A DNA stretch of 38,386 bases, taken from assembly GCA_020726265.1 (NCBI GenBank), contig DYSZ01000018.1, positions 1-38,386 on the forward strand, given 5' to 3'. The position numbers were made by a program, and so were the translations under genes. Source of the DNA: Draconibacterium orientale. GTDB lineage: Bacteria > Bacteroidota > Bacteroidia > Bacteroidales > Prolixibacteraceae. The notes beneath the pieces are model-generated. The model worked only from the letters and a program-made list of their open reading frames with translations. It had not been told where the DNA came from and ran no database searches. Below, piece by piece: positions 5,070 to 23,309 of the stretch (position 1 is its first letter; each line of letters begins with the position of its first letter).

Positions 5070-6368
5070 ATGAATGTCAGCACCTTTTTGAAGCCACTTT
5101 TAATAATTATAGCAGTTGCTTTTTCTGCGATAGCCAATGCCCAGATTTCAGCGCCTGGTTTAACAGGATCGGATAAAACCAGTTACCCGGTTTTTACCGA
5201 AACCGACAGCATTTTTGTTTTTTGCAACCAGGCAGAAAACAGTGCAACTGGTTCGTTGCGTGTAACCACAAGTCTAACAGGTACAAAAACTTTTTTATGG
5301 GAAAAATACGACGCAGGAAATTTTGGTTTTTATTTTTCTGAAAGTGCCGATGCCGCTCAATCGACAATTAATAACCTCTCCGACGGGTGTTACCGGGTAA
5401 CTGTCACGCAAGGTGCCAATACAATGGTTTCCCGGGCCTGGATTTTTAACGACTGGTTCACGGCAGAAGCTGGAATAACAGAATCGAATTGTGATTTTTT
5501 TCAACTTACCTCGAAACACGAAACGGGCACATTTGAATACTATGACCTTTCGACCGGTGCGACGGTTTTGCTGAATAAAGTTGTAAAAGTTCAATGGAAG
5601 AAAGGAAATGAGGTTATTGCCACCATTTCTGATCCGCAAATAACGAATCTACCAACAGCAAATACTGATTACACATTCAGGGTTTACGACCAATATGGGT
5701 GTGAGGCAGTGGTGCCGGTAACGTATGAATCGGTGGTTACCAAAGCATTTTTTACAGTTGATAAACCAAAAGGTGAAGCTCCGTTAACTGTTACATTTAC
5801 AAATAGTTCTGAAAATGGAACTGCTGGACAATATGAATGGTTTTTCTTTTATGATCTGGATTGGATAAAAGAGAATTCTAAGAGTTTTGACTCACCTGAA
5901 GATAGTATTGAGAATGTTTATGACCAAGAGAGTGTAGTATATACATATGAAAATTCAGGAACCTATATGGTAAAGCTTGTATCGAAAAAACTTTCGCCGG
6001 GGTTGGCGTGTGTCGATACTTTTTATCTCGAAGATTACATCGTTGCCGATACTTCGTTTATAAATGTCCCTAATGTATTTACGCCGAATGGCGATGGAAC
6101 AAACGATGAGTTTGTGGTGAAATTCTGGTCGATGCAAAGTGTTGAAATTGATATTTATAATCGCTGGGGAAAACGTTTGCATTCGTGGAAAAGCGGCGAT
6201 GTGCGCGGTTTTGAACAAACCTGGACCCAAACCGTTTGGGATGGCCGCGGAATGGGTGGCCGAATGGCAAGTCCGGGAGTATATTTTTATAATGTAACCG
6301 GTATTGGCCGCGATGGGGTAAAACGCCACAAAGACGGGTTTTTCCACCTGTTCAGGGAAAAGGACTAA
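5070..6368 (+). CDS. T9SS type B sorting-domain (gliding-motility C-terminal domain) surface protein with PKD domain
   Basis: A 432-residue exported protein. Residues 1-24 are a signal peptide ending A-N-A. Residues 225-325 look like a PKD beta-sandwich (PLTVTFTNSS, ending in a YTYENSGTYMVKL strand). Residues 333-432 form the CHU_C/type B sorting domain, recognised by N-V-F-T-P-N-G-D-G-T-N-D, I-Y-N-R-W-G, W-D-G-R and the G-V-Y-F-Y-N-V strand. Such proteins cross the inner membrane by Sec and the outer membrane by the type IX system, then are released or anchored at the surface. No enzymatic domain is visible, so an adhesin or structural role is an inference. The gene ends head-on against the next gene with interlocked stop codons. 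Confidence 0.9.
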   Translation: MNVSTFLKPLLIIIAVAFSAIANAQISAPGLTGSDKTSYPVFTETDSIFVFCNQAENSATGSLRVTTSLTGTKTFLWEKYDAGNFGFYFSESADAAQSTINNLSDGCYRVTVTQGANTMVSRAWIFNDWFTAEAGITESNCDFFQLTSKHETGTFEYYDLSTGATVLLNKVVKVQWKKGNEVIATISDPQITNLPTANTDYTFRVYDQYGCEAVVPVTYESVVTKAFFTVDKPKGEAPLTVTFTNSSENGTAGQYEWFFFYDLDWIKENSKSFDSPEDSIENVYDQESVVYTYENSGTYMVKLVSKKLSPGLACVDTFYLEDYIVADTSFINVPNVFTPNGDGTNDEFVVKFWSMQSVEIDIYNRWGKRLHSWKSGDVRGFEQTWTQTVWDGRGMGGRMASPGVYFYNVTGIGRDGVKRHKDGFFHLFREKD

Positions 6369-8089
6369 ATTCCTTCACTCAGCCTGAAAGTATTCAGGAT
6401 TTCATTTGTAATATCTTCGGTATTTGTCTCCTGAATATTGAAAATTTTCTCAGGCGAAATCCTGAATTTTTGAATTATTTCAGCCAGAACTTCCTGCCTG
6501 ACTGAGAAAATAACATGACAACTTTTATTTGCCAAAAGATGATGAATCGACGGCGCCCATCCGTTATCATTGAGTTCAAGCCACCCAGTTTCATCAATAA
6601 TTACAATTCTTGATTTGCAATTAAAAAGAACAGTATTCCCTTTTTCAAGAGCAGTTTCACTGATAAAATATTTGCCCACTTTATCCTGTCCGTCAATACC
6701 CGATGTACTCAGAAAAACCATCTCTTTCCCTGTTTTAATATCGAAAATATGATAACCTGTGGTTGTATTTTCCTGCATTTTTCGTAATGAAAGAATACCG
6801 GCAACCGAGATATTTTCTGAATTCAACCTGGTTACTAAATTCTTCAGCAAAGTGGTTTTTCCTGAACCAATTCCACCAGTTAAAATGTAAATTTTCTGTT
6901 CGTCGAGCCTGCTTTTTTTCAGTTCATCCAGCCTGAATTCGGCATAATTTATCAACTGACTGACAACCAAACCCGGATTTCGGAGAATGGTTTTCACATC
7001 GGGTGTATTGGCAATCACGGCAGGCAGCGTGTCAATCGAAATTTCGATGGCCAGCGGAAGTTGTTTGAAATAGCTGTTGCCAAAGAATTTTCTGATTCCG
7101 GGGTTGTACAATTCAGTTCCGATAGCGGTAAAACCCATGATAACCAGAATGGCGCGCAGGTTCATTTCTATTCCCATCAAAATGGCTTCTGAAACAGGTA
7201 CAGGTTCTGTTTCGAGTTGGGTAAAAACCACTGCTGTAAGCATGGTTATTAAAACAAAAAATACCCAGAAACGAGGCCGGATAATCTGTCGGTAAGCGCG
7301 TTTATATCTGAAAGCCCAGATTGTGGCAGATACTAAAACGAGTAAAGCCCAAATTTCAAAGATAATCCTCTCGGTAAACAACAGTAAACCAATCAAAAGG
7401 GACATATTTGCAAACAACCAGCCCAATGAATAGCTGAATTTGTTTTGTTTTCCGGTTCTGGGAGTATTTATTTCCTTGAATTGAATTGAAGCAGCCTGAA
7501 GCGTTTCCCCCGATTTTATTGCTTTTCCTGTTCTTATTCCGATGATTGCTGTCACACTGCCGAAAATTATATACAAACCGAGTAAAACAAAAATGGGCAT
7601 CCAAACAGCATCGAACTGAAGCCGGAGTTGTTGCTCCGCAAACTTCATCAGGTTGGTATATACTTCGATAATGTTATTTCCGTAGAAAATTATGAAATTG
7701 AAAATCTTCTGAAACAGATTCCACGACATTGCAAGTGCTGAACCTACGATAAACCCGGCCATATTACGCCCCAGCAACCGAACTGAAAATTCGAGTAACA
7801 AAGCTTCACTGAAAATGGCAATCATCGGTCCGAAAATGACTGCACTTGGCGACATTGTTTTCAGCAATGCACAAATTAAACCGGCCCGCCAGAACAAGCC
7901 TTTCTCAGTCCATTTATAACTTGCCGAAATAAGAATAATTAACCCAATTGCTGTTAAAATATTTCCGCTGAATGGAATACGCAGATTGTGCAGAAAACTT
8001 CCGAGAATGATTTCGGATGAAGCCCATGTTGTTCCAAGAAGTGCCGATTTTATCCATGTTTCGTTGAGCAGCTCGTTTGATTTTACCAT
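6365..8089 (-). CDS. Fused membrane protein: ECF-transporter-like membrane regions plus THEP1/NTPase_1-like P-loop domain
   Basis: A 574-residue protein in three parts. Residues 15-185 are polytopic and resemble an ECF S-component (small residues, R-I-P-F-S-G, then G-P-M-x-A-I-x-x-E-A). Residues 222-385 have further hydrophobic segments and a segment (R-A-I-L near 312 to I-D-T-L-P near 352-356) resembling EcfT/CbiQ coupling regions. Residues 398-574 are a P-loop domain with Walker A GGIGSGKTT (405-413) and Walker B IVIIDETG (495-502), closest to THEP1/NTPase_1 nucleoside-triphosphatases. The ABC signature LSGGQ is absent, so the NTPase is not a normal EcfA. The ECF assignments are from pattern; the P-loop call is firm. 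The substrate is unknown. It appears monocistronic. Confidence 0.7.
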   Translation of the reverse strand: MVKSNELLNETWIKSALLGTTWASSEIILGSFLHNLRIPFSGNILTAIGLIILISASYKWTEKGLFWRAGLICALLKTMSPSAVIFGPMIAIFSEALLLEFSVRLLGRNMAGFIVGSALAMSWNLFQKIFNFIIFYGNNIIEVYTNLMKFAEQQLRLQFDAVWMPIFVLLGLYIIFGSVTAIIGIRTGKAIKSGETLQAASIQFKEINTPRTGKQNKFSYSLGWLFANMSLLIGLLLFTERIIFEIWALLVLVSATIWAFRYKRAYRQIIRPRFWVFFVLITMLTAVVFTQLETEPVPVSEAILMGIEMNLRAILVIMGFTAIGTELYNPGIRKFFGNSYFKQLPLAIEISIDTLPAVIANTPDVKTILRNPGLVVSQLINYAEFRLDELKKSRLDEQKIYILTGGIGSGKTTLLKNLVTRLNSENISVAGILSLRKMQENTTTGYHIFDIKTGKEMVFLSTSGIDGQDKVGKYFISETALEKGNTVLFNCKSRIVIIDETGWLELNDNGWAPSIHHLLANKSCHVIFSVRQEVLAEIIQKFRISPEKIFNIQETNTEDITNEILNTFRLSEGI

Positions 8090-8250: not shown

Positions 8251-9189
8251 CTACTCCGGCAAAACCCCGGCTGTTACGTCGGTTACTGAAAAATAATCGC
8301 CGAATTGTGCCAGAAACCCGATGCTGAATGCACGGAAAGTATAGCTTACAGGCAGCAAAATTACCGACCCTACATATGGAATTATTATCAGCAACAGCCC
8401 AATACAACAAGTTAACAGAGCAGCTAACAATATGAGAATTCCCACACCAATGCCAACTGCGAAAACAAAAAGTCCGTAAAGAATAAACGAACCCGGATGC
8501 TGTAGGGTGAGCGTCAGAAATTTAGACCAGGCTTGTGTTGCAGAAAAGTTATGTTTGTACATGATGGGAACAATAAAATCGTTCAGAAACAGAGAAATGT
8601 ACCCGAAAATAACCAGCAAAGCCACAATGGTGATTACAAAACTTACGATAAAACCGATTTTCGATACTTCGGGGACTACCCCTGTATGAATATTTTTTGC
8701 CACGCCAAAACCATAGATAGCCAGTAAAATAATCACGCCAAAAACCAGCCAGCCATAAAAAAATTGCCACCAGAAAAGCGAGTTTCCCTGTTTTCGGTAG
8801 TCATTCCAAGGTTTAACAACGGCATCGGCATTGTTTACCACGTTGTACAGAAACATAAATTTTCCGCGGGAGCTGACCCAGGTCAGCACAGTGGCAATTA
8901 CAAAAATTAAAACAAGGGCCACGATAATCAAACCAAGCCAAAGCGGGTGTTCCACCAGCCAGTCGCGGGCTATTTCAGGAAATGAAAAAATCTTGTCAAC
9001 GTTAAAATCATGAATGTTGTTGTTTATTTTTCCGTTGCTTCGGCCGCCGCCACTGCTGCATTCAGTTAACCCGGCAAGAAAGGCGGTAAATCCGACTGTT
9101 ATCCATTTCGGTAAATCGAAAGGTTGAAAAAGTGCTTTTTTCATGCGGTTGAAACCCTCTGAAAGAGGTTCGGCATAGTTTACGGTCAT
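8251..9189 (-). CDS. Polytopic inner-membrane protein of unknown function
   Basis: A 312-residue protein with a cytosolic-looking N-terminus followed by hydrophobic helices near residues 84-106, 140-161, 177-199, 234-258 and 259-282. A short N-terminal segment (residues 28-42) is also hydrophobic and precedes a Gly/Ser-rich loop. The motif L-N-D-F-I-V-P-I-M-Y (202-211) and the layout resemble the DUF4013/DUF7544-like group of uncharacterised membrane proteins, but I cannot assign a family with confidence. No catalytic residues stand out. It lies between the EF-G paralogue (terminator between them) and the fusion gene (161-nt gap), so it is probably transcribed alone. Confidence 0.75.
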   Translation of the reverse strand: MTVNYAEPLSEGFNRMKKALFQPFDLPKWITVGFTAFLAGLTECSSGGGRSNGKINNNIHDFNVDKIFSFPEIARDWLVEHPLWLGLIIVALVLIFVIATVLTWVSSRGKFMFLYNVVNNADAVVKPWNDYRKQGNSLFWWQFFYGWLVFGVIILLAIYGFGVAKNIHTGVVPEVSKIGFIVSFVITIVALLVIFGYISLFLNDFIVPIMYKHNFSATQAWSKFLTLTLQHPGSFILYGLFVFAVGIGVGILILLAALLTCCIGLLLIIIPYVGSVILLPVSYTFRAFSIGFLAQFGDYFSVTDVTAGVLPE

Positions 9190-9340: not shown

Positions 9341-11497
9341 CTATTCTTCGTCTGCCTCTTCAGCGTAGGCTTTCAGCAGTTCTTCCTGTACATCGGCAGG
9401 TACTTTTTCGTATTCGCTGAATTCCATGTTAAATAAACCACGGCCACCGGTAATTGAACTCACAGCTGTAGTGTATTTGTACATTTCCTTTAACGGAACT
9501 TTTGCCGTAATTTTTTCAAGATTTTTTTCAGAGCCCATACCCATAATCATTGCACGGCGGCCCTGAAGGTCGCTCATGGCGTCACCCATTCTATCGGACG
9601 GAACCCAAACATTCAGATTATAAATTGGTTCCAGAATTTTTGCACCTGCATTTTTAAATGCTTTACTGAATGCGTTACGTCCTGCAAGCCTGAACGAAAT
9701 TTCGTTTGAGTCAACCGGGTGCATTTTGCCATCATAAACATAAACCCTGATGTCGCGGGCATACGAACCTGTTAGCGGGCCTTCTTCCATTTTTTCCATG
9801 ATACCTTTCAGAATCGCAGGCATAAAACGGGCATCGATTGAACCACCAACAATACAATTACAATAAATAAGTTTACCGCCCCATGGTAAAATGTGTTCTT
9901 GAACGTCGCGAACCGACATTTTTTGTTCTTTGTCGCCAAATTTGAACATTGTTTTGGGCTGACTGCCTTCTTCATAAGGTTCAATAATCAGGTGAACTTC
10001 GCCGAATTGACCGGCGCCACCTGATTGTTTTTTGTGGCGGTGATCGGCTTGTGCCGGTTTTGTAATTGTTTCGCGATATGGTATTTTAGGCTGATAAACT
10101 TCAACTTCAATTTTATACACATGGTCGAAAAACCATTTCAGAATATTGAGGTGGTATTCTCCCTGACCCTGTACAATTAATTGTTTGAGTTCTTTTGAGT
10201 ACTCAATAATATAGGTCGGGTCTTCGAACCTGATTTTATTTAAAACTTCGCCTACTTTTTCATCATCCGACTCATTCTTTGCTTTCATTGCAACAGTAAT
10301 GCGGGGTAATGGGAAAACAACAGGCTGGAATTTTGTATCTGCTTCCTTGGTTGTAAGTGTGTGGTTGTATTTTGTTTCTTTCAGTTTTACAGTACATCCG
10401 AGGTCGCCGGCAACCAGTTCTTCCACTTTTTCGCGGTTTTTACCAACCGACACAAAAATCTGTGATAGTCTTTCTTTGTTGGCTGTTGTGGCATTGATCA
10501 AGTCGAGGCCTTCGGTAATTTTTCCCGACATTACCTTGAAATAGGTGATTTCGCCAACGTGTGGTTCCACCGCTGTTTTGAAAACAAATAAACTAGGTTT
10601 TTCGTTTTCATCCATTTTGGGTTCTTTGCCACTGGCAATTTTTATGCGTGGTCGTTCGCATGGCGACGGAGCATTGTTGGCAATAAATTCGATTAAACGG
10701 CCAACACCGATGTTTTTCTTTGCACCTGTGCACAAAACAGGGTACAAACTGCGGTCGAGAATACCCAAACGGATGCCTTTGCGCATGTCTTCCTCAGAAA
10801 GTGAACCCTGTTCGAAATAGAGTTCCATAAGTGACTCTTCGTTTTCGGCAGCCATTTCCACAAGCTGGTTGTGCAGTTCGGCTGCCTTGTCGGCTTCCGA
10901 AGCAGGAATATCGATTATTTCAGGTTTGCCACCATCTTTCCCGTATTTGTACAATTTCATCTTCAAAACATCAACGATTGAAGAGAACCCCGGGCCGGCA
11001 TCAACCGGGTATTGAATAACAGTAACTTTATTTCCGAATAAATTTTTGCACTGTTCAAGGGTTGAGTCAAAGTTTGAGTTATCGTGGTCGAGTTGGTTAA
11101 ATATTAATCCTACCGGGATGTGCGCTGTGTCGGCATGACGGTTGGCTGCTTCGGTTCCGGCTTCAATTCCGTTTGAGGCATTTACCACTATAAAATTTAT
11201 GTCGGTTACATACAGCGAAGAAGCCACTCCTCCGCATAAATCGTCCATTCCGGGGGCATCAAGAATATTGATTTTTTTACCGTTAACTTCGGTGTACATC
11301 AGCGATGAATACACTGAGTTGCCGTAGTCCTGTTCAATATGAGTGTAATCTGAGGCTGTATTTTTTGCAGTGACTTCACCCCTGCGATTGATTATACCAC
11401 CCTCGAAAAGCATAGCTTCTGCAAGGGTGGTTTTCCCACTGCCGGCATTTCCTGATAAGGTAATGTTACGAATCTGATTCGTTTTAAAAATTTTCAT
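9341..11497 (-). CDS. Elongation factor G paralogue (EF-G2 type) with degenerate GTPase motifs
   Basis: A 718-residue protein with full EF-G architecture: G domain, domain II, and domains III-V (for example HKKQSGGAGQFGEV and SDLQGRRAMIMGM). P-loop GNAGSGKT (16-23) is intact, but G3 reads DAPGM (80-84) instead of DTPGH, so the catalytic switch II His is Met. The switch I stretch has lost the R-G-I-T motif (residues 57-62, D-Y-G-N-S-V), and G4 is NQLD (134-137) instead of NKMD. The true EF-G is at 21198-23309. A Bacteroides EF-G2 paralogue has been reported to support translation under nutrient limitation without GTP hydrolysis; this is probably its orthologue (inference). It has its own promoter and terminator. 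Confidence 0.9.
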   Translation of the reverse strand: MKIFKTNQIRNITLSGNAGSGKTTLAEAMLFEGGIINRRGEVTAKNTASDYTHIEQDYGNSVYSSLMYTEVNGKKINILDAPGMDDLCGGVASSLYVTDINFIVVNASNGIEAGTEAANRHADTAHIPVGLIFNQLDHDNSNFDSTLEQCKNLFGNKVTVIQYPVDAGPGFSSIVDVLKMKLYKYGKDGGKPEIIDIPASEADKAAELHNQLVEMAAENEESLMELYFEQGSLSEEDMRKGIRLGILDRSLYPVLCTGAKKNIGVGRLIEFIANNAPSPCERPRIKIASGKEPKMDENEKPSLFVFKTAVEPHVGEITYFKVMSGKITEGLDLINATTANKERLSQIFVSVGKNREKVEELVAGDLGCTVKLKETKYNHTLTTKEADTKFQPVVFPLPRITVAMKAKNESDDEKVGEVLNKIRFEDPTYIIEYSKELKQLIVQGQGEYHLNILKWFFDHVYKIEVEVYQPKIPYRETITKPAQADHRHKKQSGGAGQFGEVHLIIEPYEEGSQPKTMFKFGDKEQKMSVRDVQEHILPWGGKLIYCNCIVGGSIDARFMPAILKGIMEKMEEGPLTGSYARDIRVYVYDGKMHPVDSNEISFRLAGRNAFSKAFKNAGAKILEPIYNLNVWVPSDRMGDAMSDLQGRRAMIMGMGSEKNLEKITAKVPLKEMYKYTTAVSSITGGRGLFNMEFSEYEKVPADVQEELLKAYAEEADEE

Positions 11498-16254: not shown

Positions 16255-16320
16255 TTTCGTTAATAAAAGATAATTATGCCAAAGTTTCCACATTATATGC
16301 AACCCGATGCAATGGACTGC
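16255..16320 (+). repeat. Direct repeat copy 2 (5' end of the intact exporter gene)
   Basis: This is the partner of 15592-15657. It covers the last 21 nt of leader and codons 1-15 of the exporter gene that starts at 16276. Confidence 0.85.
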
Positions 16321-18477
16321 GGACCAACCTGTCTGCGGATTGTGGCAAAACATTTCGGGCGGCATTACAACCTTGAAACTTTGCGCAACCTCACCTGGAA
16401 AACCCGCGAAGGCGTTTCGCTGCTTACCATCAGCGATGCTGCCGAAAAAATCGGTTTTCGTACACAGGGAGTCCGCATCACCTCTGAAAATTTACACGAG
16501 ATTTCGCTCCCGGCAATCATCCACTGGAACCAGAACCACTTTGTTGTACTATATAAAATAAAAAATAAAGGTAAGGCCAGTGCTGTCTATTGTATTTCTG
16601 ATCCCGCACACGGACTTGTGGAATACAACCAGCAGGAGTTTCTGAAATGCTGGGCTTCAACAGCGCAGGAAGGAACACCTGCCGGAATTGCGTTGCTGCT
16701 CGAACCAACCGCCGATTTTTACAAAGAGGAAGGTGAGGAAGTAAACAAAACAGGTTTCCGCTACCTTTTATCGTACCTGAAACCCTACCGAAAGCTGATT
16801 ACACAACTTATACTTGGTTTTCTCACAGGAAGTTTACTCAGCCTTATTTTCCCATTTCTTACCCAGGCCATTGTCGATGTGGGGATTGCCACAAACAACC
16901 TGAATTTTATTGTACTTGTGCTGGTTGCCCAGCTTGTTTTGGCAGTCAGTCAGACAGCAGTGGGTTTTATCCGCAGCTGGATTATGCTGCATACAAGTAC
17001 GCGTGTGAGTATTTCGCTGATTTCTGATTTTCTGATAAAACTGATGAAGCTCCCCATCCGGTTTTTCGATACAAAAATGATTGGCGACCTGCGACAACGC
17101 ATCGACGATAACCAACGCATTCAGTCGTTCCTTACCGGAAATCTTATCAGCATGTCGTTCGGCATTTTCATATTTATTATTTACAGTTTTGTGATGGCCT
17201 ACTACGACTGGACCATTTTGCTTATTTTTTATGCTGGAAGCGCTTTGTACATCGGGTGGATTTTGCTTTTTCTGAAAAAACGAAAAGAACTCGATTATAA
17301 ACGATTCACGGTTTCGGCAGCCAACCAGAGTAATGTCTATCAGTTAATTACCGGGATGCAGGAAATCAAACTCAACAACTGCGAAAAACAAAAACGGTGG
17401 GAGTGGGAGCGCATTCAGGCCAAACTTTTTAAGGTAAGTGTAAAAGGACTGATGTTGCAGCAAAACCAAATGGCAGGTTCAACGCTTATTAACCAGGCGA
17501 AAAATATCCTTATTTCATTTATTGCAGCCAAATCAGTTGTCGAAGGCGACATGACTTTGGGTATGATGATGGCAGTACAATATATAATAGGTCAGTTAAA
17601 CAGTCCAATTAACGAATTTATTGGTTTTATTCAAGCCGGGCAGGATGCCAAAATCAGCCTCGAAAGATTGGGCGAAATTCATAACCGGGAGGAAGAAGAA
17701 CAGGCTGGTATGGCAACACTCGACGAACTTCCGGTGCGTAGAGATATTGCAGTCACCAATCTTACTTTTCAGTACGAAGGGCCAAAATCGCCGCGTGTGC
17801 TTAAAAATATAAGCCTTGTAATTCCTGAAAAGAAAATCACCGCCATTGTCGGTGCAAGCGGAAGTGGTAAAACCACGCTGATAAAACTGTTGCTTGGTTT
17901 TTATCCGCCAGCCGAGGGAAAAATTGAAATCGACGGCATCAATTTAAACCAGCTGAACATGGAGATGTGGCGGCAAAACTGTGGAACTGTAATGCAGGAC
18001 GGATTTATTTTTTCCGATACTATTGCCAATAACATTGCCATCGGCACCGATTTGCCCGACCGAGCCAAACTGGCAAAAGCTGTAAAAACTGCCAATATCG
18101 AAGAATACATTGAAAGTTTACCGTTGCGGTATAATACAAAAATTGGTCAGGAGGGAGCAGGACTCAGCCAGGGACAGAAGCAAAGAATACTGATTGCCCG
18201 CGCAATTTACAAGAATCCGGAGTTTTTGTTTTTCGATGAGGCTACCAACTCACTCGACGCCAACAACGAAAAAGTGATTCTTGAAAATCTGAACGAGTTT
18301 TTTGAAGGGAAAACTGTGGTAACGGTTGCCCACCGGCTGAGTACTGTAAAAAATGCCCACCAGATTGTGGTGTTGGACAAAGGCGAAGTAGTTGAAGTTG
18401 GTACTCATGAAGAATTGACTCGAAAAAAAGGAGCCTATTATCAATTGGTGAAAAACCAGTTGGAATTGGGGAATTAG
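16276..18477 (+). CDS. Peptidase C39-containing ABC exporter (bacteriocin/peptide processing type)
   Basis: A 733-residue protein that would cleave a leader peptide after a double-glycine site and export the product across the inner membrane. Residues 1-130 are the C39 peptidase with Gln9, Cys15 (D-C-G-P-T-C), His88 (W-N-Q-N-H-F-V-V) and Asp109 (S-D-P-A-H-G), all in place. Residues 155-450 are six-helix transmembrane segments. The nucleotide-binding domain has Walker A GASGSGKTT (about 526), signature LSQGQ (about 630), Walker B LFFDEAT (about 652) and the H-loop His in V-A-H-R-L-S. The HlyD-type adaptor follows. No precursor peptide gene or TolC homologue is seen nearby. The gene starts inside a direct repeat. 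Confidence 0.95.
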   Translation: MPKFPHYMQPDAMDCGPTCLRIVAKHFGRHYNLETLRNLTWKTREGVSLLTISDAAEKIGFRTQGVRITSENLHEISLPAIIHWNQNHFVVLYKIKNKGKASAVYCISDPAHGLVEYNQQEFLKCWASTAQEGTPAGIALLLEPTADFYKEEGEEVNKTGFRYLLSYLKPYRKLITQLILGFLTGSLLSLIFPFLTQAIVDVGIATNNLNFIVLVLVAQLVLAVSQTAVGFIRSWIMLHTSTRVSISLISDFLIKLMKLPIRFFDTKMIGDLRQRIDDNQRIQSFLTGNLISMSFGIFIFIIYSFVMAYYDWTILLIFYAGSALYIGWILLFLKKRKELDYKRFTVSAANQSNVYQLITGMQEIKLNNCEKQKRWEWERIQAKLFKVSVKGLMLQQNQMAGSTLINQAKNILISFIAAKSVVEGDMTLGMMMAVQYIIGQLNSPINEFIGFIQAGQDAKISLERLGEIHNREEEEQAGMATLDELPVRRDIAVTNLTFQYEGPKSPRVLKNISLVIPEKKITAIVGASGSGKTTLIKLLLGFYPPAEGKIEIDGINLNQLNMEMWRQNCGTVMQDGFIFSDTIANNIAIGTDLPDRAKLAKAVKTANIEEYIESLPLRYNTKIGQEGAGLSQGQKQRILIARAIYKNPEFLFFDEATNSLDANNEKVILENLNEFFEGKTVVTVAHRLSTVKNAHQIVVLDKGEVVEVGTHEELTRKKGAYYQLVKNQLELGN

Positions 18478-18483
18478 AGATAG

Positions 18484-18524
18484 ACCCCATCCCGGCCTTC
18501 CCCGAGAGGAGTAAGGGAAAGAAC
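18484..18524. repeat. G/C-rich imperfect palindromic repeat between exporter and adaptor genes
   Basis: This short stretch (begins ACCCCATCCCGGCC, then TTCCCC and GGAG/AAGGGAAAG) is unlike its AT-rich surroundings. It resembles dispersed intergenic repeats of Bacteroidota genomes. It shares the AAGGGAAAG end with the repeat at 18571-18612. Dispersal cannot be tested within this window. Confidence 0.5.
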
Positions 18525-18537
18525 TTGAAAGAGTAAA

Positions 18538-19908
18538 ATGAATTTTAAAAAAAAAGATATCGAGAATTCCAAAGTTTCCCCCTTGGGGGAAAAGCCCGAA
18601 GGGAAAGGGAGCCTGATAGAATTACGTTCCGATGAGGTTCAGGAAATCATGGGAACTCCACCGGCCTGGATTGTCCGTTGGGGGATTACTATTATATTAT
18701 TGGTAGTACTTGTTTTGCTTTCCGGAAGTTTTTTCTATAAATACCCCGACCTGATTGATGCCCGGGTTACTATTCTTTCCGAAAATCCACCGGTGCAGGT
18801 GGTTGCCCGCTCTGATGGAAAACTGGTGAATATTCTTATTGCCGACAAACAAAAGGTTTCGGCAAACCAATTGCTTGGGATTATTGAAAACCCGGCGAAT
18901 TTTGAAGATGTTTACCAATTGGCTGAAGAATTAGATTCAATAAAAGGTTATTTTGATGAGCCACAATTGTTTAATAATCTGGTATTTGACAAAGAATACA
19001 GCCTCGGACAAAATCATCCCTATTATACTTCGTGGGTTAGCCAGTTGTGCGATTACCAGACATTTGTACGGTTCAATACCATCAGCCAACGCATTCTTTC
19101 GCTCGAAAAACAGGTAGTTGATTACAGAAATTACATTGAAAAACTGCGACAGCAAATAGCTGTTTTAAATAAAGATTACATTCTAGCAACCAATCAGTTT
19201 AAACGCGACTCGACGCTTCATGTACGAAAAGTGATGTCGGATGTTGATTTTGAAAAATCGGAAGCTGCCATGCTTAAACAAAAATACAACTACGAAAATG
19301 CGATGACCAACTTGGCAAGTACGCAAATTACGGTTAATCAGTTGGTTCAGCAAATTCAGGAACAAAAAGTTATGAATGGCGAAACCGAGAATAGACTGTT
19401 AGCGGTTTTGAAGGAACGATACGATAATCTTGTGAGTCAGTTAAAAGCCTGGGAGCAATCTTTTGTGTTGAAAACTCCGGTTGAAGGAATGGTTACTTTC
19501 AATAATTTCTGGAGTGTTAACCAGTTTGTGGGCAATGGGAACGTGGTTTTCACAGTCGTTCCCTTCAGCGTGCAGAAAATAATCGGCAAAGCGATGGTTC
19601 CGCTGGCAGGGGCAGGTAAAGTAGAAGTGGGGCAGCGGGTTAATATTAAACTCGATAATTACCCGTACATGGAATTTGGCCTGTTGGAAGGTAAAATCAT
19701 CAACATTTCGATGGTGCCGGTTGCCACAGAAAAAGGCGGATATTATACTGCCGAAATTGAGTTAACACAAAAGCTTGTTACCAATTATAAAAATGAACTT
19801 CCTTTTAATCAGGAAATGCAGGGAGTTGCCGAAATAATAACCAAAGACCGCCGGTTAATTGAAAGACTGATTGATCCTGTCGTATCAATTTTCAGGGAAC
19901 GGTTCTGA
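18538..19908 (+). CDS. HlyD/membrane-fusion-type adaptor of the C39-ABC exporter
   Basis: A 456-residue periplasmic adaptor. A cytosolic N-terminus of about 43 residues is followed by one transmembrane helix (about 44-67, WIVRWGITIILLVVLVLLSG). Next come a biotinyl-lipoyl-like half (PPVQVVARSDGKLVNILIAD), a long coiled coil (about 170-295) and the second lipoyl/beta-barrel part (LKTPVEGMVTFNNF, VPLAGAGKVEVGQRVNI). It would link the exporter to an outer-membrane channel. Residues 11-26 (S-K-V-S-P-L-G-E-K-P-E-G-K-G-S-L) are encoded by a palindromic repeat that appears to be inserted in frame between I-E-N and I-E-L-R-S-D-E-V. It lies 60 nt after the exporter gene. Confidence 0.9.
   Translation: MNFKKKDIENSKVSPLGEKPEGKGSLIELRSDEVQEIMGTPPAWIVRWGITIILLVVLVLLSGSFFYKYPDLIDARVTILSENPPVQVVARSDGKLVNILIADKQKVSANQLLGIIENPANFEDVYQLAEELDSIKGYFDEPQLFNNLVFDKEYSLGQNHPYYTSWVSQLCDYQTFVRFNTISQRILSLEKQVVDYRNYIEKLRQQIAVLNKDYILATNQFKRDSTLHVRKVMSDVDFEKSEAAMLKQKYNYENAMTNLASTQITVNQLVQQIQEQKVMNGETENRLLAVLKERYDNLVSQLKAWEQSFVLKTPVEGMVTFNNFWSVNQFVGNGNVVFTVVPFSVQKIIGKAMVPLAGAGKVEVGQRVNIKLDNYPYMEFGLLEGKIINISMVPVATEKGGYYTAEIELTQKLVTNYKNELPFNQEMQGVAEIITKDRRLIERLIDPVVSIFRERF
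18571..18612. repeat. Palindromic repeat inside the adaptor coding sequence
   Basis: TTTCCCCC, a 2-nt centre and GGGGGAAA (18575-18592) form a perfect inverted repeat, followed by GCCCGAAGGGAAAGGGA. Composition and shape match the repeat 50-90 nt upstream. It is read through in frame as about 14 residues of the adaptor N-terminus. Confidence 0.65.
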
Positions 19909-21197: not shown

Positions 21198-23309
21198 ATG
21201 GCTAAACAAGATTTGAATTATACCAGAAACATTGGTATCATGGCGCACATCGATGCAGGAAAGACCACTGTTTCAGAGCGTATATTGTATTACACAGGTT
21301 TAACGCACCGTATTGGCGAAGTTCATGACGGTGCTGCGACTATGGACTGGATGGAGCAGGAACAGGAACGTGGAATTACCATTACCTCGGCTGCAACCAC
21401 CACCTTCTGGAAATATAAAGATGTTGACCACAAAATCAACATTATTGATACACCCGGCCACGTTGACTTTACAGTTGAAGTGGAACGTTCACTCCGTATT
21501 TTGGACGGTAGTGTTGCGTTATTCTGCGCTGTTGGCGGGGTAGAGGCTCAGTCGGAAACCGTTTGGCGTCAGGCCGAGAAATACGGTGTTCCGCGTATTG
21601 CTTTTGTAAATAAAATGGACCGTTCAGGTGCTGACTTTTTTAAAGTTTACGGCGAAATCAAAGAAAAACTGGGTGCGAATCCGGTTCCGATTCAGATTCC
21701 GATTGGCGCTGAGGAAAAATTCGAAGGCGTTATCGACTTAATCGAGATGAAAGCTGTACGCTGGTACGAAGACGGCGAAAAAGGAACCAACTACCATTTG
21801 GAAGATATTCCTGCTGATTTGGTTGAACTGGCTGAAGAATGGAGAGGAAAACTGATGGAATCTGTTGCTGAAGTTGATGATGAACTTCTCGAACGTTATT
21901 TCGAAGACCCGGATTTAATCACCAAAGATGAAATGCTTGCCGTTATCCGCAAAGCAACCATTGCACGTGTTATCATCCCTATGATGTGTGGTTCGGCTTT
22001 CAAAAATAAAGGAGTTCAGCGTTTGCTCGATTCAGTTTGTGCATTCCTGCCCAACCCGCTTGATAAAGGCGAAGTTGTTGGTGTAAATCCATGGACTGAA
22101 AAAGAGGAAAAACGAAGTGCTGATTCAACTCAGCCACTGGCTGCGCTGGCATTTAAAATTGCTACCGACCCGTTTGTAGGTCGTTTGGCTTATATCAGGG
22201 TTTACTCTGGCAAACTCGAAGGTGGTTGCACCGTACTGAATACCCGTACCGGGAAAAAAGAAAGAATCTCGCGTCTGTACCAGATGCATTCGAATAAACA
22301 AAATCCGAAGGAAGAAATTGAAGCAGGTGATATTTGTGCAGCTGTTGGTTTTAAAGACATCCGCACAGGCGATACACTTTGCGATATTTCGCACCCGATT
22401 GTGCTCGAAAGTATGGATTTCCCGCAACCGGTAATTGGTATTGCCATCGAACCGAAATCTCAAAAAGATATCGACAAACTAGCACAGGGACTATCAAAAT
22501 TAGCTGAAGAAGACCCTACATTCCAGGTAAATACCGATCCTGATTCAGGTCAGACAGTTATCCGCGGAATGGGTGAACTTCACCTCGAAATTCTTGTTGA
22601 CCGTTTACGTCGCGAGTTTAAAGTTGAGTGTAACCAGGGAGCTCCTCAGGTGGCTTACAAAGAAGCAATCAGCAAAGTAGTTGAACTTCGCGAAGTATTT
22701 AAAAAACAATCTGGCGGTCGCGGTAAATTTGCCGACATCATTGTTAAAATTGAACCGGCCGACGAAGGTGTTACAGGATTGCAATTTATTGATGCTGTTA
22801 AGGGAGGGAGAATTCCAAAAGAATTTATACCACCGGTACAAAAAGGTTTTGAAAGCGCGTTGCTTAATGGTCCGCTTGCAGGATTCCCTGTTGACAGTTT
22901 AAAAGTTACACTGTTAGACGGTTCGTTCCATGCGGTTGACTCCGACCAGTTATCATTCGAAATTTGTGCACGCCAGGCATTCAGAAGCGCTGCTTCTAAA
23001 GCATCGCCAAAATTACTTGAGCCAATCATGAAACTCGAAATTGTAACGCCTGAAGAATATATGGGCGAAATTATTGGTGACCTTAACCGCCGTCGCGGTG
23101 AGGTTAGCGGTATGGAAACCAAAGGCGGTGCGAAAGTTATCGGTGCAAAAGTTCCGCTCTCAGAGCAATTTGGATATGTAACAGTATTGCGAACACTATC
23201 ATCGGGAAGGGCAACTTCTTCGATGGAATTCAGCCATTACCAGGAAGTGCCAAAATTATTGGCCGAAAAGGTATTGGAAGGTTTTAAAGGAAGAACTGAT
23301 TTATTATAA
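21198..23309 (+). CDS. fusA: Elongation factor G
   Basis: The ribosomal translocase GTPase, 703 aa, with all canonical G motifs: AHIDAGKT (16-23), R-G-I-T-I switch I, DTPGH switch II with the catalytic His, and NKMD. Domains II-V follow, with G-G-R-G-K-F and the C-terminal [11 protein letters not shown]. It serves as the canonical partner against which the degenerate paralogue at 9341-11497 can be compared. It follows rpsG by 47 nt. A tuf gene does not follow; rpsJ does, which joins the str and S10 operons. Confidence 0.99.

Follow-up and report, generated by a model that had tools for sequence, protein, structure and literature searches.

Energy-coupling factor (ECF) transporters combine S and T membrane modules with a pair of ABC-type ATPases (EcfA) that carry the LSGGQ signature, and metal importers exist within this class. 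Molybdate and tungstate are taken up by ABC importers, ModABC among them. An NTPase from outside the ABC class, THEP1 of Aquifex, is a single-domain protein, and the accessible part of its structure paper (PMC1079890) gives its cellular function as not known. In the open-licence literature we found no report of a protein like the one described below or of a bacterial molybdenum-cofactor importer; the available portion of one paper mentions 'molybdenum cofactor transporters' for a fungal genome, citing other work.

The stretch of DNA analyzed here, hereafter the window, comprises 38,386 nucleotides of Draconibacterium orientale (assembly GCA_020726265.1, contig DYSZ01000018.1). A preliminary description had proposed that one of its genes encodes the parts of an ECF transporter, namely an S-component-like module (S), an EcfT/CbiQ-like coupling module (T) and a P-loop NTPase (N), on a single chain. 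The 574-codon open reading frame is present and lies on the minus strand, reading from 8089 down to 6365; the plus strand of this interval contains many stops in the same frame. The features of the gene are the following.

6365..8089, minus strand: S-T-N fusion protein P0001, 574 aa, stop codon included (ORF reading and homologues)
7490..8089, minus strand: S-like membrane module, residues 1-200 (solo genes in relatives; weak Pfam S-component matches in relatives only)
6902..7447, minus strand: T-like (EcfT/CbiQ-related) membrane module, residues 215-396 (family hhalign comparison with CbiQ; separate T genes)
6368..6904, minus strand: THEP1/NTPase_1 domain, residues 396-574 (Pfam match 402-565)
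6851..6877, minus strand: Walker A motif GGIGSGKTT, residues 405-413
6584..6601, minus strand: Walker B-like motif IIDETG, residues 497-502

Homologues were found in 21 of 61 relatives' genomes (S-module match, own genome counted; two more gave an NTPase-only match), and the S profile was found in 34 of 395 genomes of the phylum. Twelve loci taken from contigs of the relatives' genomes, together with 40 fetched stretches, gave 52 loci that were scored for S, T and N; 51 of these contain S and one (L091) N only, and some genomes contribute two loci. Mean pairwise identity, calculated over the 12 alignment rows that reach the end of the protein, was 70% for S, 60% for T and 42% for N. A single scan of viral contigs revealed no relative. 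The matches in two genomes (G009 and G049) each contain one in-frame stop (TAA and TAG, respectively).

Several other genes of the window were noted. A DUF7544 membrane protein is encoded upstream on the same strand (8251-9189), and in L002 and L015 a relative of it adjoins S-T-N. A second EF-G-like protein (9341-11497, minus strand) is present besides the EF-G of the ribosomal operon (21198-23309), and an ABC exporter, seemingly peptidase-containing, is followed by an HlyD-like protein (16276-19908).

Membership of the N domain in the THEP1/NTPase_1 family, as originally proposed, was confirmed. Residues 402-565 matched Pfam NTPase_1 (PF03266) with an E-value of 3e-23 and 82.9 bits (gathering cut-off 23.9), the structures 1ye8 (E 5e-7) and 2i3b (E 6e-4) were found by sequence, and Foldseek searches with a model of the whole protein returned 1ye8 (THEP1; E 3e-4) as the only match below 0.001. 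The score against the NCBIfam equivalog PRK13695 was 90.7 bits, under its cut-off of 156. Both Walker motifs listed above had been named in the preliminary description; of the 37 N domains of relatives, 36 preserve the Walker A pattern (the exception, L101, retains GKT) and all have the Asp-Glu of the Walker B-like motif. We rejected the possibility that the P-loop belongs to an ABC ATPase, since NTPase_1 is a far better match and ABC_tran reached 17.8 bits, below its cut-off of 25. A motor contributed by a neighbouring ABC ATPase was likewise rejected: the ABC signature pattern occurs in 3 of 608 genes across the 52 loci, and these were read as putative lipid, phosphate and ABC-2 exporter ATPases, none as EcfA. 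Searches of the own genome with CbiQ and ECF_trnsprt gave no match. The THEP1-like domain would drive transport by NTP hydrolysis.

The relationship of the T module to EcfT/CbiQ was assessed by gathering CbiQ (PF02361) sequences and comparing T-family profiles with them by hhalign. The profile of T modules encoded by separate genes scored 93.6% (E 2.2e-7), all T sequences together 58.3%, the fused T modules of the window's own clade alone 25.6% (E 7.5e-4), and the T-like tails of a group of S proteins of 310-365 aa 0.1%. Six membrane controls (NrfD, two YeeE sets, NapH, cytochrome b and one LysE-like protein) reached at most 1.2% with any T set, and the separate T genes scored at most 1.1% against these controls, the S profiles and the ECF_trnsprt set. 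The T-CbiQ alignment stops short of the second conserved Ala-Arg-Gly region of CbiQ, which we take to be the EcfA-docking motif. When a wide T profile was compared with the PDB, EcfT (5d3m) ranked top, with an E-value of 0.16. Among Pfam families, CbiQ was also the one that fitted the largest number of T members (5 of 22, with 0.23 as the best E-value), matches that prove little alone because single T members fit unrelated Pfam families at lower E-values. The proposed coupling module is supported by profile, by way of the separate T genes and with just 25.6% for the own clade, and we regard the T module as reasonably placed among the relatives of EcfT/CbiQ.

The S module is probably ECF S-component-like. 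ABC_cobalt and Trep_Strep, both presumably S-component families, were the only Pfam families that matched more than one of 27 S members; they matched six (best E 4e-4) and five (best E 2e-4), respectively, below the Pfam cut-offs, and some of these matches span nearly the whole model. This support comes from relatives, but the window's own S gave no match to the S-component Pfam families. Within residues 1-390 no Pfam family scored above its cut-off, nor did any NCBIfam model for the membrane part. The mixed ECF_trnsprt set gave no hhalign match to the S module, and gathering of Trep_Strep for profile comparison yielded one weak match in 148 genomes. No ECF chain was retrieved from the PDB with S and T module profiles built nearly entirely from fused proteins, or with a wider S profile. 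Structure prediction, suggested in the preliminary description, recovered the THEP1 fold but yielded low-confidence membrane models and no ECF fold: the mean pLDDT of the AlphaFold models was 59 for the whole protein and 52 for the S module alone, the S module was helical in both, and a Foldseek search with the latter model gave no match at E below 0.001. Since AlphaFold gave no confident membrane part, the S fold is unproven.

The division into three parts was borne out by the arrangements observed in relatives, in which S, T and N can each be encoded separately or be fused in a different order. Standalone S genes encode about 195-235 aa. S and T are fused without an attached N in L092 and L093, and N precedes S in L078, L079 and L081, where the tail scores as T in one of the three. 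Thirteen proteins of about 310-365 aa consist of S and a tail that is alignable to T and gave no T match; an N gene lies alongside four of them (L083, L084, L107, L109) and none was found for the other nine. In eight loci (L070-L077) the order is S, T and a TonB-dependent receptor of about 640-670 aa (in L071 and L074 the T gene was identified from its BLAST cluster or from alignment rather than with the HMM). The receptors of L070, L072 and L076, as well as that of L039, are TonB-dependent by Pfam, and the others of this group were labelled by BLAST. An N gene comes next after the receptor in L070, L071, L074, L075 and L076, not in L072, L073 and L077.

The preliminary description would have been contradicted by homologues whose NTPase is unfused and never co-occurs with the membrane part. 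This is not the case: we found a separate N gene that adjoins S or lies three genes off in ten loci (the five with N after the receptor, the four with N beside the 310-365 aa proteins, and L090). No N gene was present on the stretch in 15 of the 51 S loci, or in 14 of 50 when L038, which ends inside the gene, is left out, so that N may lie elsewhere or may not always be the motor, which makes us slightly less confident of the proposed role. An apparent natural split into S-T and T-N in G017 (L099, 7121-8823) was rejected, because the overlapping frames cut T mid-module, and an assembly frameshift is the likelier cause. Three of the loci with the S-T-receptor operon contain, about 9 kb from it, a second, more divergent S-only gene (L072, 2852-3436; L073, 15888-16469; L077, 2762-3352), with a cytochrome b-like gene two genes away.

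The own genome carries, at C300, an operon encoding a MobA-like protein, a 784-aa molybdopterin oxidoreductase, a ferredoxin-like subunit, NrfD, two sulfur-transport-like proteins and a rhodanese-like protein; four of these genes were identified by Pfam, and the operon contains no S-T-N. In two genus members, genes similar to those of sulfide-quinone reductase, DsrE and TusE lie near the oxidoreductase operon (L181, 4508-7293; L189, 871-3648), a hint of a sulfur substrate for the oxidoreductase.

A survey of the gene neighbours of homologues, which the preliminary description had also suggested, revealed recurrent molybdenum-enzyme genes and TonB receptors. At least one of MopB, MobA, MocA, Xdh, XdhC, TrsS and a dicluster protein was found in 16 of the 52 loci, a TonB receptor in 12 and a DUF364 gene in 10 (raw counts with no background rate, which exclude the oxidoreductases truncated by the ends of L076, L083 and L107). 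The cofactor genes recur in unlike loci: beside a MobA-like and an oxidoreductase gene, with xanthine-dehydrogenase-like and XdhC genes, and in a TrsS cluster. In G043 and G050 an S-T gene is flanked by a MobA-like and a molybdopterin-oxidoreductase gene, in the same kind of operon as that of the own genome (the G043 protein matched MobA models below their curated cut-offs). In L028 and L036 the S-T-N gene lies inside a TrsS-type maturation cluster as defined by NCBIfam, with matches above the cut-offs for the dicluster protein (L036) and for TrsS, the DVU_1556 methyltransferase and the DVU_1553 ligase (L028), and below them for MocA-, XdhC- and ModE-like genes (L028). It is distinctly improbable that the protein imports something else, for instance a sulfur compound or a different vitamin-like molecule, and that its link to molybdoenzymes is indirect; the sulfur-transport and rhodanese-like genes of the oxidoreductase operon and the 36 of 52 loci with no labelled cofactor gene would fit such a role, and the recurrence of cofactor genes in unlike loci (sulfur genes were not counted) speaks against it.

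Maturation genes among the neighbours, and a faint similarity of the THEP1-like motor domain to MobB (E 0.01, below the cut-off), would also fit a protein that is not a transporter, namely a chaperone or nucleotide-switched device, bound to the membrane, that delivers the cofactor to molybdoenzymes which reside in the membrane or are exported. We consider this quite unlikely, as the homology of T to an importer subunit and the TonB receptors adjoining in some relatives point to uptake.

ModE-like genes occur near S-T-N in L028, L036, L039 and L101, and in the latter two the gene order is ModE-like, TonB receptor, DUF364 and S-T-N. DUF364 is described by Pfam as putative heavy-metal chelation. 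The ModE-like gene directly before the receptor and the DUF364 neighbours would suit a metal-ion substrate too, and ECF importers of metals are known, as noted above; nevertheless, an ECF-like importer of molybdate, tungstate or their chelate, not of finished cofactor, seems unlikely in view of the distribution of the cofactor synthesis genes. Among 198 phylum genomes, in which MoaC was found in 117 and MoeA in 116, MoaC is present in 8 of 22 S-positive and 109 of 176 S-negative genomes (p 0.036, kinship not accounted for). The 14 S-positive genomes without MoaC, which argue against the import of metal, include two with MoeA and 12 with a Molydop_binding match; among all MoaC-negative genomes the latter match occurs in 12 of 14 S-positive and 25 of 67 S-negative ones (p 0.001, kinship not accounted for), counts that are not pure, since PF01568 (Molydop_binding) also matches long ORFs, some of which we take to be cofactor-free homologues. 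MoaE was absent from all of twelve further S-positive genomes, from all of seven more that had been picked for absent MoaC, and from 20 of 21 S-positive relatives (the exception being G058), and was present in 16 of the 40 other relatives (p 0.003 if independent). Searches of the own genome, which is 99.6% complete, for MoaC, MoeA and MoaE gave no match, so metal alone would not be convertible to cofactor there by the known route. The retention of MoaC in the eight S-positive genomes counts against cofactor import. A search for ModB gave matches in 167 of the 198 genomes, 62 of them above its cut-off.

Within the genus (37 genomes) S-T-N occurs in 12 genomes, MoaE in 14, both in none and neither in 11 (p 0.0009 if independent). 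The oxidoreductase (over 700 bits) is present in 33 of these genomes, nine of which have neither MoaE nor S-T-N, a finding that speaks against cofactor import; they include G003, G007, G013 and G022, each at least 99% complete. On a tree of 34 oxidoreductase sequences, 32 of them from the genus (G017 has none and G028 pieces only), the S label needs five changes and the S versus MoaE states three, and an independent-pairs test gave a median p of 1. The pattern agrees with the idea of cofactor import; it is not independent proof of it and is not significant after kinship is considered.

The architecture is best explained by an ECF-like importer that a THEP1-class motor drives, and the neighbours and missing synthesis genes by the cofactor or molybdopterin as its substrate. 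Our leading proposal, put forward tentatively, is therefore an ECF-like importer of molybdenum cofactor or molybdopterin that is powered by a THEP1-class NTPase; uptake as the direction, NTP hydrolysis for transport and the identity of the substrate are what we infer. S-T-N would be a one-chain, ECF-like inner-membrane importer in which the S module binds the substrate, the EcfT-related T module couples movement to nucleotide hydrolysis, and the THEP1-class P-loop NTPase replaces the two ABC-type EcfA ATPases. The likeliest substrate, molybdenum cofactor or molybdopterin, would be imported preformed, completed by MobA- or MocA-like proteins and inserted into enzymes, for example the polysulfide/thiosulfate-reductase-like oxidoreductase that the own genome encodes. 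In several relatives the adjoining TonB-dependent receptor may move the substrate across the outer membrane. It is possible, if rather doubtful, that outer-membrane receptor, inner-membrane S-T and THEP1-family motor together form a novel class of primary importers that take in a whole metal-pterin cofactor.

If the proposal is true, bacteria can use molybdoenzymes without making the cofactor, and bacterial groups depend on neighbours for it. It would further mean that a transporter can follow the ECF layout yet run on a non-ABC motor, and that THEP1-type NTPases, whose function the Aquifex structure paper, in its accessible part, leaves open (PMC1079890), can act in transport.

Compared with known systems, the S-T-N protein shares with ECF transporters the S-like and T-like membrane modules, T being related to CbiQ by profile. 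It differs from them in that all parts lie on one chain, that a THEP1-class NTPase is fused or encoded nearby and no ABC-type EcfA was found, and that a TonB receptor adjoins in some relatives; since the pair of ABC-type ATPases with LSGGQ is replaced by NTPase_1, we refrain from classing it among the ECF transporters, although it may work like them. With ModABC it has the molybdenum-related gene context in common, and is set apart by the lack of an ABC ATPase and by the absence of MoaC from 14 of the 22 S-positive phylum genomes. The TrsS / DVU_1551-type clusters for aldehyde-oxidoreductase maturation (NCBIfam) enclose S-T-N in two loci, whereas its membrane part fits none of the NCBIfam models above cut-off. 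To THEP1/NTPase_1 proteins (PF03266; Aquifex 1ye8, human 2i3b) it is linked by sequence family, fold and Walker motifs; in contrast to the single domain of Aquifex THEP1, as given in the accessible text of its structure paper, the NTPase is here joined to an importer-like membrane part.
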